Origin: a virus
Virus record (IMG/VR): IMGVR_UViG_3300042691_016049
Coordinates: 1-64,000 of that record
Strand: one strand, 5' to 3'
DNA length: 64,000 nt
In this document: positions 31,330 to 34,883 of the stretch, piece by piece
How positions within the stretch are numbered: position 1 is the stretch's first letter
How the letters are laid out: each line of letters opens with the position of its first letter
Notes under the pieces: generated by a model
Seen by the model: only the letters and a program-made list of their open reading frames with translations
Told to the model about the DNA's origin: nothing
The model's database searches: none
Made by a program: the position numbers and the translations under genes

Positions 31330-31499
31330 AGCGGTAGCGGCATTTCATCAAATGCTTCGCCGTTAAGTTTTAAAAATCCGATCATGGCAAGATCTGGGTC
31401 GCAAGCGCCGTCAACCTTCCAGTCTCCTCGCCTGATTGCGGCATCCATTACTTCATATAGCCTTGTGGCACAATTGCGCCATTTTGTTTCTTCGTTCAT
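31326..31499 (-). CDS. 57-residue hypothetical protein
   Basis: ATG at 31499, overlapping both neighbours by four bases. Contains two Cys (RNCATRL and GACDPD) and an acidic C-terminal half. Function unknown. Confidence 0.65.
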   Translation of the reverse strand: MNEETKWRNCATRLYEVMDAAIRRGDWKVDGACDPDLAMIGFLKLNGEAFDEMPLPL

Positions 31500-31807
31500 T
31501 TGATGATTCCTTCTTGGCGGGCAATGGCCTCAATCTGGCTCACATACTCGCGGGTACAATTGAATACTTCGGCAACGGCGGTGAAGTTGGTTTCGGGGTT
31601 GTTCATAATGAAACCCAGAATCTTGAACGCCCTTCCCCCGTTGGACAGACGCCTCTTGGTGGTCTTCTTGCGCCTCGCCCGAATGCCAGTCCGCTTCAAC
31701 GCCGAAGCCATGGCATGGTAGCTTGATCCGTGTTTTACGGCCAGTTCACCAATGGTGATTTCGGGGTTTTCCTGAATTTCAGTAGGTAGAGTAGATGTGT
31801 TGATCAT
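31496..31807 (-). CDS. Helix-turn-helix DNA-binding protein
   Basis: Two helix-turn-helix-like units: ITIGELAVKHGSSYHAMASA near residues 18-37 and FTAVAEVFNCTREYVSQIEA near 75-94, joined by a very basic linker (RARRKKTTKRR). ATG at 31807 is used; ATG at 31825 is also possible. It is near the head of the leftward early block, so it may regulate that block or the divergent RNA region. Target and sign of control are unknown. Confidence 0.65.
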   Translation of the reverse strand: MINTSTLPTEIQENPEITIGELAVKHGSSYHAMASALKRTGIRARRKKTTKRRLSNGGRAFKILGFIMNNPETNFTAVAEVFNCTREYVSQIEAIARQEGIIK

Positions 31808-31859
31808 ATAATTATGTATTGACATTACACAGTAGCTGGGCTTTAATCGCCGTCAAATA

Positions 31860-32144
31860 TTAATATTTAGGGGGCGTTGGAACTTTCCGTTTCCGCGCCT
31901 TTCGCGGTTTACGGGCTTTCCTCTGCTCCCTGTGGAACAATTTGTGGCACACCTTACAGAGGCAGATCAGATCGTCTAGGTGATTAAGTTCGTCTCCTTG
32001 GTGTTCGTAGGTTCGGTGGTGGGCCTGAAGTTCTAGGGGGCTATTGCATACCCCACATCTCCACCCGAATCGCTTCTTCACAAGTCGGCTTACTTCCCGC
32101 CAGTAGGGGGTCAGCAAGTAAACTTTGTAGGATTCTTTATCCAC
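31860..32144 (-). CDS. HNH endonuclease, 94 residues
   Basis: Zinc pairs CGVC and CKVC frame the HNH motif LQAHHRTYEHQGDE with LDDLICLCKVCH, followed by a very basic tail. Small free-standing HNH proteins are usually homing nucleases or packaging partners. The start is GTG at 32144, predicted to be the first transcribed base of the promoter at 32151-32178. Confidence 0.85.
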   Translation of the reverse strand: MDKESYKVYLLTPYWREVSRLVKKRFGWRCGVCNSPLELQAHHRTYEHQGDELNHLDDLICLCKVCHKLFHREQRKARKPRKARKRKVPTPPKY

Positions 32145-32150
32145 AGAAAG

Positions 32151-32178
32151 ATATTACTCTCTTGTTGACTCTGTGCAA
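32151..32178 (-). promoter_or_regulatory. Promoter for the leftward early block
   Basis: Minus strand: TTGCAC at 32178-32173, 16 bp spacer, TAATAT at 32156-32151, then six bases and GTG at 32144. The start codon coincides with the expected transcription start, as at 24312. A plus-strand TTGACT-16-TATTCT (32165-32192) overlaps it and could drive the opposite strand. Confidence 0.6.
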
Positions 32179-32273
32179 CTCCAGTGTATTCTATGCACTT
32201 CCTTGCATCTGGGTGCGGTTCCTTGCGCTGTCATGACGTTGACTTTGTTTCGGGGCCGCACCCTCTTTCTTTC

Positions 32274-32302
32274 TTGACTCTTGTTTGAACATTTCGTAGG
32301 GT
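32274..32302 (+). promoter_or_regulatory. Candidate promoter for the structured RNA
   Basis: TTGACT at 32274-32279, 17 bp spacer, TAGGGT at 32297-32302. The -10 is poor, so TTGACT-16-TATTCT at 32165-32192 is an alternative. Either would transcribe the folded region that follows. Confidence 0.35.
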
Positions 32303-32970
32303 CGCGCTGTCAACGTCGAGTGACAGCGTAAAGTGGGCGCGACATACGCCACTAAAACCTGTGACCCTAGGTATGCAAGGATCAAACCGCCGAACGCTCA
32401 GGTCAGCCATCCGTCCCATAGCTTGAACACATTGCGGCGTGGGAATCCAGAGAAACTCTGGTAAGCGCGAGGGATAATACCCTCGGAGGTCGATTGCGGT
32501 TGTTTGAAGGTCTAATAGCGGCTTCGGAGCCTAGACCGTGATCTGTGGAATAAAGCGGAGGACTCACTCATAGGAATGAGAATCCAATCTTTTGACTACT
32601 GCCTTTGCCCCTGCGGGGGCGAGGTGTAGTCAATCGGTCGGATCTAGCTCAAGGAATTATTAATCCAATGACGGCGGCGATTCGGGGTTAAACGAAACGG
32701 AGCCGCAATGATAGGCGGGCGCACGGCTTTAGCCCGCCGAATACCCCCAAAGAAAAAAGAAGAAAAAACATTGAACGCCCCGAAGGGGCTGTGGTCTATG
32801 TATCTATGGATACTTCGGAGAGGATCATTGAGGGCAACACTGCGAATGCGGGGTTGAGCGACCTGAGTCCTCTCCCAATTTTTGGAGGTGGGGAGACCCG
32901 CATGCAAATGCGAAAGCTTCAAAGGCTGGGGGGCTAATGAGGTTGCGCCACCCCGCCTCCAATCTTTTTT
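32301..32970 (+). ncRNA. Large structured RNA candidate, about 670 nt
   Basis: No gene on either strand, but many strong helices in series. Examples: GTCGCG 32301-32306 with 32338-32343; CGCTGTCA 32305-32312 with 32321-32328; CCAGAG 32447-32452 with 32456-32461; CGAGGG 32468-32473 with 32480-32485; GGTCTA 32509-32514 with 32532-32537; CTCAT 32567-32571 with 32576-32580; TTGACTAC 32592-32599 with 32626-32633; GGCGGGC 32714-32720 with 32732-32738; GCCCC 32777-32781 with 32785-32789; GTATC 32800-32804 with 32809-32813; GGAGAGGA 32817-32824 with 32868-32875. The last helix, GGAGGTGGGG 32884-32893 with 32951-32960, is followed by CTTTTTT like a terminator. A GCAA tetraloop on CGCAT/ATGCG (32899-32912) favours the plus strand. 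Size and complexity recall giant phage RNAs such as GOLLD and ROOL; membership in either is not shown. Confidence 0.7.
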
Positions 32971-33249
32971 ATGAAAAAACTACTACTACTGGCATTAGTC
33001 ACTAGCGTTCAGGCCCAAGATGGTTCGTTTAATGGAACCATCTATGATTTGGATTCGGGGAGGATACAGGTCATAAGTGGGTCTGTGGATATTAAGCCAA
33101 AAGAAGACACATACTTGGAAACGCTTCGCCGCATCAATGCGGAGTTGGCCGAATCAAACGCCCGTATTAGTGCGGAGATTGCCGCAAGTAACCAACTTTC
33201 TGAGTTGCAAGAGCAGACCCGCCTTCTTCGCAAAATTGCCGACCAATGA
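32971..33249 (+). CDS. Small secreted protein with coiled coil
   Basis: A 92-residue protein with a Sec-type signal peptide (KKLLLLALVTSVQA, likely cut after Ala16) and a helical C-terminal half (ELAESNARISAEIAASNQ). ATG follows the T-run of the structured RNA by one base, so it has no ribosome site of its own. Its stop shares four bases with the next gene. An envelope role is inferred. Confidence 0.65.
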   Translation: MKKLLLLALVTSVQAQDGSFNGTIYDLDSGRIQVISGSVDIKPKEDTYLETLRRINAELAESNARISAEIAASNQLSELQEQTRLLRKIADQ

Positions 33250-34883
33250 GCAACTATCTGAACGTCAATATCCCCACCTTCTTTGCTTTCGTAGACGAGG
33301 GGTTTTTCTACGATCTGGAGCCAGAGGTGTCTCGCTCAAGACAATTGGTAGAAGTCTTTGCTTTTACTTCTATTCCCCAACGTTGCGGGATGTTCAGCGT
33401 GATGACCGAATACGGAAGCCAGCATGCCAGAGTCCCGATCCATTACCTCCATACCGATGAAACTGGAGGCACATTTTACCCGCTGGACTGGATACAACTC
33501 TGGGACTCCATGAGCTACTATTGCTCAGTCAATATCTTGGATTACTGCAAAAACAGGGCGGCAAACATCATGCTTAAAAACAAAAGCTTTGAGGAAGCCA
33601 AGTATATGTTCACGCTAGATTGGTGTTTGGGGCCGCAATATACATCTGGATACGGCGAGATGGCGGCTGGTCACAAGTGCTTTGGCGAGGACACAATGAT
33701 TCTTTGCAAAGATGGGCTTTACCCAATTAAAGAAGTTGAGGTTGGGGATTATGTTTGGACACACAAAGGTAGATGGAAGCGTGTGGCCGCTATTCATAAA
33801 AGAGTTGGCGATTCGGTTTCCGTGAAAGCTGCTGGAATTGCCAACTTTATAACAACAAAAGAACATAAAATTTTAACAACACTAGGATGGGAGCAAGTTC
33901 AAAATGCAGGATGCGTGACTCTTGCATCGCCGCAATTACCTCTTAGTCGCCCCATTGATTGTCCTCTAGAAATCAATGGAGATTTCATGCGGTTTCTTGG
34001 GAGGTGGGTTGGCGATGGTTGTATTAATTACTCGCAAAAATCGGGAAGACCAAAGGGAGAGTTGGTCAACAGAATCATTGTTTCTTGTAATGCTCAAGAG
34101 GAAGAATCTCTTGAAAAAGACATTGATTTGTTTTTCAAAACAAAAACGCGCCAACAGGTTTCTGGAAACTGCTATAATTATTACATGGAAAACAAACAAT
34201 TGGCTGAATGGATTTCAGACAATTTTGGTAGATACTCTTGGGCAAAAAGAATTCCAAACTGGATTTATTCTTTAGACAAAAGCCTGATTGAGGATTTCAT
34301 CTATGGATATTTTCTTTCTGACGGTTCTATAACAAAAGACACCAATGAAAGATCAATAACCAGTGTTTCTAAAAAACTTGCTATTGGAGTAGCGATGCTT
34401 CTTCGGGTTTGTGGATATTATCCCAAAATCTATTATCGCGACAGAGATAACGATTTATGCAAAATTCACAAAACCACCTACAAGTGTAAGCCGAGATATT
34501 CCGTAAGGTGGATGATTGACAAAAAACAAAATACCTTCACAAAATATGCTGATGGTAGAATTACTTCTAAGATAAAATCTTTAGAAGATTTTGGCACCGC
34601 CCTTCTTTATGATCTTTCAGTTGAGGACGATCACTCGTACATTGCAGATGGCGTGATAGCGCACAACTGTGGTCATGTATTTGCGGGTAATGGGCAATAC
34701 TTCATCCAGCCCAACAATCGCGTGTTATGGATGGATGGAGGATCGTTTATTGCCAAGAAGTTTCCGCAAAAGCCCGACTGGAAAGTATTCAGCCAAGAGT
34801 TTAGTTGTGAACACACTGGGAGCCGTTGGGTCAGTGAAAGCGAGGAGGAGCTATGGTTTTACGACTTCAAAGAGCAGGGATAG
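33246..34883 (+). CDS. Unknown phage protein interrupted by an intein
   Basis: The frame codes for 545 residues, of which residues 145-474 form an intein. Splicing would leave a 215-residue protein: 144 residues, then Cys475 and the last 71. The host protein is not recognised. It is rich in aromatic residues and Cys, and the junction lies in AAGHK/CGHVFAG, a Gly/His/Cys-rich spot likely to be functionally important, as inteins usually choose such sites. Its start shares four bases with the preceding gene. Confidence 0.8.
   Translation: MSNYLNVNIPTFFAFVDEGFFYDLEPEVSRSRQLVEVFAFTSIPQRCGMFSVMTEYGSQHARVPIHYLHTDETGGTFYPLDWIQLWDSMSYYCSVNILDYCKNRAANIMLKNKSFEEAKYMFTLDWCLGPQYTSGYGEMAAGHKCFGEDTMILCKDGLYPIKEVEVGDYVWTHKGRWKRVAAIHKRVGDSVSVKAAGIANFITTKEHKILTTLGWEQVQNAGCVTLASPQLPLSRPIDCPLEINGDFMRFLGRWVGDGCINYSQKSGRPKGELVNRIIVSCNAQEEESLEKDIDLFFKTKTRQQVSGNCYNYYMENKQLAEWISDNFGRYSWAKRIPNWIYSLDKSLIEDFIYGYFLSDGSITKDTNERSITSVSKKLAIGVAMLLRVCGYYPKIYYRDRDNDLCKIHKTTYKCKPRYSVRWMIDKKQNTFTKYADGRITSKIKSLEDFGTALLYDLSVEDDHSYIADGVIAHNCGHVFAGNGQYFIQPNNRVLWMDGGSFIAKKFPQKPDWKVFSQEFSCEHTGSRWVSESEEELWFYDFKEQG
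33678..34667 (+). mobile_element. Intein with LAGLIDADG homing endonuclease
   Basis: 330 residues from Cys145 to Asn474. Splicing blocks: N-terminal CFGEDTMILCKDG, block B TTKEH (T204-H207), and the C-terminal SVEDDHSYIADGVIAHN followed by extein Cys. Two LAGLIDADG motifs (LGRWVGDG 251-258 and YGYFLSDG 353-360) carry the acidic residues of an active homing endonuclease. The DNA is more AT-rich than the flanking exteins, consistent with recent gain. Confidence 0.92.

Follow-up and report, generated by a model that had tools for sequence, protein, structure and literature searches.

GOLLD RNAs are large, phage-encoded RNAs found near tRNA genes, with a conserved 3' part, a variable 5' part and sometimes a tRNA inside, while ROOL RNAs of phages and prophages are about 600 nt in length, often lie by tRNA islands and are of unknown function (PMC12286853). 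The window analysed here, 64 kb out of a 68.5-kb IMG/VR virus record, gave no blastn match against known phages and contains a gene-free interval (32145-32970) with leftward genes on one side and rightward genes on the other. A sequence-only reading had placed one giant structured RNA of about 670 nt, belonging to a known class such as GOLLD or ROOL or to a new one, exactly at the switch between the leftward and rightward blocks, and the gene directions confirmed this position:

31496-31825, leftward block: helix-turn-helix-like gene
31860-32144, minus strand: HNH endonuclease-like gene, the left neighbour
32971-33249, plus strand: gene for a small signal-peptide-like protein of 92 aa, which opens the rightward block

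No Pfam or PHROG match was obtained for the 92-aa protein, and the second rightward gene (33246-34883) is phrog_3704-like and split by a LAGLIDADG intein, as judged by Pfam and PHROGs. The intein is absent from most relatives, and this gene also appears interrupted in L017, L060 and L062. Neither ARAGORN nor Rfam found a tRNA or tmRNA gene in the window, although phage tmRNA and tRNA-Ile genes occupy the same intergenic slot in the more distant relatives L068 (5263-5617) and L078 (5137-5493).

With the downstream gene as bait, 80 related viral loci were collected, 56 of which carried similar DNA, and three patterns built on conserved blocks of RNA-1 (below) added more contigs; those inspected share the layout of leftward regulators, RNA and rightward block. 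The relatives resemble one another in a modular way, in that entire segments may be there, missing or expanded. The results indicate that the proposed 670-nt RNA is two units, RNA-1 and RNA-2, because it contains a phage-type promoter at 32771, the two parts are separated in L046 by a tRNA-Met gene that has a promoter of its own, and some phages carry the 3' part only. The homologues that the sequence-only reading had suggested looking for were found, with RNA-1 occurring in over 40 contigs of related phages; it is absent from some phages (type B), which have a leftward gene instead and retain P2 (the promoter at 32771), RNA-2 and the downstream gene. Taken jointly, the best explanation, to which we give a probability of roughly 0.6, is that the interval is an RNA slot holding RNA-1 and RNA-2, each with a promoter of its own and both probably acting in trans. 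A tRNA-Met gene was seen near or inside the slot in L006 (4165-4240), L017 (4399-4472), L043 (4052-4126), L113 (3756-3830) and L046 (5005-5079).

Both RNAs are missing from the Rfam catalogue: the covariance-model search advised by the sequence-only reading, run with Rfam 15, gave no gathering-score match in the window and nothing credible over the region at E up to 10. For the GOLLD model (RF02032), none of 12 phage records of this family passed the cut-off, nor did any control genome, and the best match (7.9 bits) fell outside both RNAs. The ROOL model (RF03087) gave no match at E up to 10 in a search in which no positive control responded either, and whole-library Rfam scans of the window and its relatives found no ROOL. 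Membership in the GOLLD or ROOL class thus found no support at the level of Rfam models (with the ROOL search lacking a positive control). These results bear on the idea that RNA-1 and RNA-2 together might form a GOLLD/ROOL-like homo-oligomeric RNA cage. In favour of it, the locus is phage-encoded and hundreds of nt long, with a 3' part that is kept, a 5' part that varies or is lost, and tRNA-Met between the parts (L046) or close by, as in the published habits of GOLLD and ROOL (PMC12286853). However, the model searches were negative, the region has two promoters, and many phages have the RNA-2 motif without other shared RNA segments, so that we regard a cage as improbable.

The promoter elements of the region are as follows:

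32274-32311, plus strand: RNA-1 promoter region, TTGACT-N17-TAGGGT overlapping the phage-type TTGAAC-N18-GTC (32285-32311), conserved in relatives
32771-32796, plus strand: internal promoter P2, TTGAAC-N17-GTC with an A-rich tract before it, indicated by spacing enrichment
32771, 35429 and 59080, plus strand: TTGAAC-N17-GTC sites of the window
29938, 28637, 27394 and 18515, minus strand: further TTGAAC-N17-GTC sites of the window

In the sampled loci of this phage group, TTGAAC-N17-GTC occurred 110 times against about 3 expected, and an ATG stands 7-12 nt downstream of 80 of the 110 sites. Other neighbouring spacings stayed near background, and the N18 form was seen 23 times in the same loci, never with an ATG after it. 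Given that RNA-1 starts bear the N18 form (32285 in the window) and RNA-2 bears the N17 form (32771), the region has two starts. The N17 element presumably resembles a promoter of the extracytoplasmic-function-sigma (ECF) type, with a very short leader or none (leaderless mRNAs); among the scanned proteins no sigma factor was found, except for a weak region-4 match in a 109-aa neighbour. A candidate hairpin, GCCCCGAAGGGGC (32777-32789), was rejected as it falls in the unconserved promoter spacer, and an HNH endonuclease-like gene lies immediately behind P2 in L024 and L111.

Immediately upstream of RNA-1 lies another paired element:

32211-32275, plus strand: hairpin GGGTGCGG...CCGCACCC followed by a T-rich tail; its loop (32229-32247) shows complementarity to the 5' start of RNA-1

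This complementarity (32211-32330) is maintained by paired changes in many lineages, with native pairings at -35.3 kcal/mol compared with -27.4 for swapped ones and -30.4 for the best of 5000 permutations, and with 34 G-U against 17 A-C combinations. It is weak in L046, L048, L058, L083, L117 and L122. The hairpin may represent another small RNA, a stem with a regulatory role or an inverted repeat of the DNA.

That the stretch is structured is confirmed. The plus strand of 678 nt folds at -262 kcal/mol compared with -230 for 20 shuffles (z -3.2); the minus strand likewise folds better than its shuffles, and folding energy alone therefore cannot fix the strand. All helices named in the sequence-only reading are present in the sequence, among them GGAGAGGA/TCCTCTCC at 32817-32824/32868-32875, TTGACTAC/GTAGTCAA at 32592-32599/32626-32633, the GCAA loop at 32904-32907, and the 3' helix, claimed with 10 bp and found as a 12-bp stem (32882-32893/32951-32962) followed by TCTTTTTT. 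By contrast, its 5' GTCGCG/CGCGAC helix overlaps the promoter and is not conserved in relatives, and a terminator at the 3' end did not hold up: the run of T is broken up in many of the relatives, stands at least 1 base off the stem and directly adjoins the ATG, and a scan for terminators found none. The earlier interpretation as a whole is thus partly supported. The folding of both strands, together with the DNA inverted repeat flanking the RNA-1 promoter, would suit ordinary intergenic DNA with chance hairpins, recombination or regulatory DNA palindromes. This explanation is already contradicted by compensatory changes, seen both between divergent lineages and in other phages, and by wobble pairs that are strand-specific, leaving it very improbable and the plus strand as that of the structured RNA.

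These changes were first of all those of RNA-1, the core of which was aligned from 37 contigs:

about 32309-32745 (3' bound nominal), plus strand: RNA-1, non-coding structured RNA of about 430 nt, from swap tests and strand counts; its start is 32309 or about 32321, according to the promoter used
32332-32336/32349-32353, plus strand: helix H_b
about 32357-32363/32397-32403, plus strand: helix H_c
32369-32391, plus strand: almost invariant 23-nt loop AGGUAUGCAAGGRUHAMWCCGCC, closed by the covarying helix H_c
32414-32423/32436-32444, plus strand: helix H_d
32447-32451/32457-32461, plus strand: helix H_e
32469-32473/32480-32484, plus strand: helix H_f
32492-32501/32534-32543, plus strand: helix H_g
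32592-32633, plus strand: hairpin

The helices vary in sequence across lineages while pairing is retained, as seen for the arms of H_g, which read GAUUGCGGUU/GACCGUGAUC in the window, GUUCACUA/UAGUGAAC in L046 and GAGAUAAUU/AAUUAUCUC in L117. Because RNA-1 alignments drift between clades, and because an R-scape-like all-pairs test with a tree-based null had little power on the core (one pair below E 0.05), pairing was tested without alignment by combining, for each helix, the 5' arm from one lineage with the 3' arm from another. In each of six helices the native arms beat all of 5000 permutations, or nearly all in the case of H_f, which is one of the six. The result persisted when the comparison was confined to nine clade representatives (p 0.00005-0.00055). 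A further short hairpin, H_h, hardly varies and is hence uninformative on covariation. Across the covarying helices, G-U outnumbered A-C by 43 to 8, which places RNA-1 on the plus strand. Folding z-scores of RNA-1 were modest (-1.3 to -4.0), with a value of -2.0 attained by one control stretch from this genome. The sequence-only reading had seen no gene here, and indeed no long open frame is common to the 12 lineages tested, with no frame of RNA-1 remaining open across them. Compensatory changes on one strand, combined with this lack of a conserved frame, mark a structured non-coding RNA. A scan for the 23-nt-loop pattern found 45 viral contigs; two matches in genome contigs were rejected as relatives as their surrounding sequence is unrelated, and looser patterns gave mostly chance matches or contigs already known.

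RNA-1 might instead be a very long 5' leader or an antitermination RNA of the rightward operon, upstream of which it lies and from which no rightward terminator was found to separate it. However, P2, the operon's own promoter, sits between RNA-1 and the downstream gene, type-B phages carry the operon without RNA-1, and in L046 the tRNA gene with its own promoter also intervenes, making a leader role for RNA-1 doubtful.

RNA-2 starts at P2 and extends to the next gene:

32806-32937, plus strand: short open frame of 43 codons, starting 9 nt after P2 and overlapping RNA-2
32815-32878, plus strand: RNA-2 motif, in the order outer stem, CAUUGAGGG, inner stem, AGCGACCUGA, outer stem (32817-32875)
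32817-32824/32868-32875, plus strand: outer stem of the motif
32827-32834, plus strand: loop strand AUUGAGGG
32835-32838/32853-32856, plus strand: inner stem of the motif
32857-32866, plus strand: loop strand AGCGACCUGA
32882-32962, plus strand: three-way junction with the 12-bp basal stem, a GNRA-type hairpin and a GGGG-loop hairpin

The stretch 32806-32965 folds with a z of -3.7, and both junction stems covary (native -24.9 and -17.3 compared with -24.0 and -15.8 for the best of 5000 permutations). With regard to reading frames RNA-2 is less clear, as short open frames overlap it: the 43-codon frame continues into the downstream gene in certain relatives and is interrupted in others, and its peptide-like conservation coincides with the RNA motif. 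In L046 the motif stands downstream of the tRNA-Met gene with its own promoter, and it is therefore not simply the coding start seen in some relatives. Long forms of RNA-2 lie between P2 and the downstream gene in L003, L006, L009, L018, L030 and L065, with several extra conserved blocks that are apparently reordered in L046, which suggests that RNA modules have been shuffled.

The motif is not confined to relatives of this phage. Two gapped scans of viral contigs gave at least 199 matches in newly fetched loci, with both stems in at least 123 of them, and the motif is present, with differing stems, in at least 100 phage contigs and in well over a hundred phage sequences. Among the matches listed, 104 of 160 distinct sequences have both stems; here an outer stem of at least 6 bp forms in 78% of native compared with 11% of swapped combinations, and the inner stem in 71% compared with 19%. 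Two alignments, A3 and A4, have 92.5% and 96.3% of their cells paired and covariation of 0.700 and 0.749 compared with 0.17 when shuffled (about fourfold) and 0.09-0.18 for slid structures. Both contain sequences picked partly for pairing, with matches lacking the stems omitted, and the swap test on 160 sequences is thus the less biased measure. The motif was collected by exact matching on its two loop strands, so that their invariance is partly by construction. A covariance model (R1) scored 67.8 bits on the window, which belongs to its training set, and recovered members outside that set, the confident ones at E of about 1e-5 to 1e-19. In eight large records R1 detected either a single copy or two for each phage genome, and it gave no match in 198 genomes from the phylum of a Bacteroidota genome, a search run with no positive control. 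Apparent second copies were noted in L117 (1404-1551) and L399 (235-367 and 1798-1888).

Among the matches listed, a tRNA lies within 300 nt of the motif in 22 of 89 distinct cases, always on the motif's strand; with the distance set at 600 nt, the tRNA is on that strand in 22 of 22 cases and upstream of the motif in 18 of them. Long open frames cover the motif in 51% of cases, less than the 81% seen for random positions. In the other phages with the motif no longer conserved RNA was found around it, and on the other motif loci scanned with Rfam only tRNAs exceeded the cut-off.

Because P2 serves both RNA-2 and the gene after it in the window, RNA-2 could be a leader, that is, motif and junction together acting in cis to control the downstream gene in a riboswitch-like or protein-binding manner. 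RNA-2 does lie downstream of P2 and ahead of the following ATG, with about 8 nt separating the junction from that ATG in the window and in about 30 relatives. In 58 of 78 cases among phages, the open frame that comes next has the same strand as the motif. By contrast, the first downstream gene varies (a signal-peptide protein, an HNH endonuclease and others), L046 has a further promoter between motif and gene, and in some phages the motif is merely 10-14 nt from a tRNA gene. A cis-acting leader is thus a possible but unlikely reading of RNA-2. Given the changing downstream genes and the operon without RNA-1 in type-B phages, we infer action in trans, and it is most likely that both RNAs act in this way from a tRNA/tmRNA slot.

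In the two-RNA reading, the slot between the leftward and rightward blocks would house structured RNAs, with RNA-1 transcribed from its own promoter and the shorter RNA-2, bearing the compact motif common to many other phages, transcribed from P2, both acting in trans as stand-alone RNAs. The working part of RNA-1 would be the invariant 23-nt loop that a covarying stem carries at its tip, and that of the RNA-2 motif would be its invariant internal loop. A bent motif could present a site for a protein or another RNA, with a role perhaps in translation or tRNA handling. It is likely that the CAUUGAGGG/AGCGACCUGA motif represents a functional RNA not described before, be it an aptamer, a ribozyme or an RNA that binds a protein, tied to tRNAs and present in 1-2 copies per genome in more than 100 phage sequences, and that RNA-1 is a separate new large class.

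The bend is suggested by a known fold. A kink-turn consists of a three-base bulge and then GA opposite GA between two helices, and the RNA-2 internal loop, C-AUU-GA-GGG opposite CCU-GA, resembles it in sequence layout, the one property compared. The layout fits in A3 and A4, where the loop strands were search constraints. This likeness makes it probable that the internal loop bends the RNA, although the RNA-2 loop differs in carrying an extra AGCGA bulge on the other strand. The small stable RNAs C and D of phage T4 (species 1 and 2) are likewise stable RNAs within a phage tRNA cluster; they were rejected as relatives, since AUUGAGGG/AGCGACCUGA is absent from rnaC and rnaD by reading and R1 was negative on the locus.

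GOLLD and ROOL are the nearest known RNAs by habit, and their Rfam models gave no match here, the ROOL search having no positive control that responded. With GOLLD the window RNAs share being phage-encoded, a tRNA neighbour and a variable 5' part, a likeness of habit and not of homology, and they differ from it in having two promoters and an RNA-2 motif that also occurs alone; with ROOL they share phage encoding, a length of hundreds of nt and the vicinity of tRNAs. To such large phage RNAs, whose function is unknown, RNA-1 contributes an RNA that is specific to one clade and has a clear invariant loop. More important is the compact motif common to many phages, which is small enough for probing, crystallising and pull-downs, and whose repeated position beside tRNAs suggests a connection with translation or tRNA handling during infection that can be put to the test.
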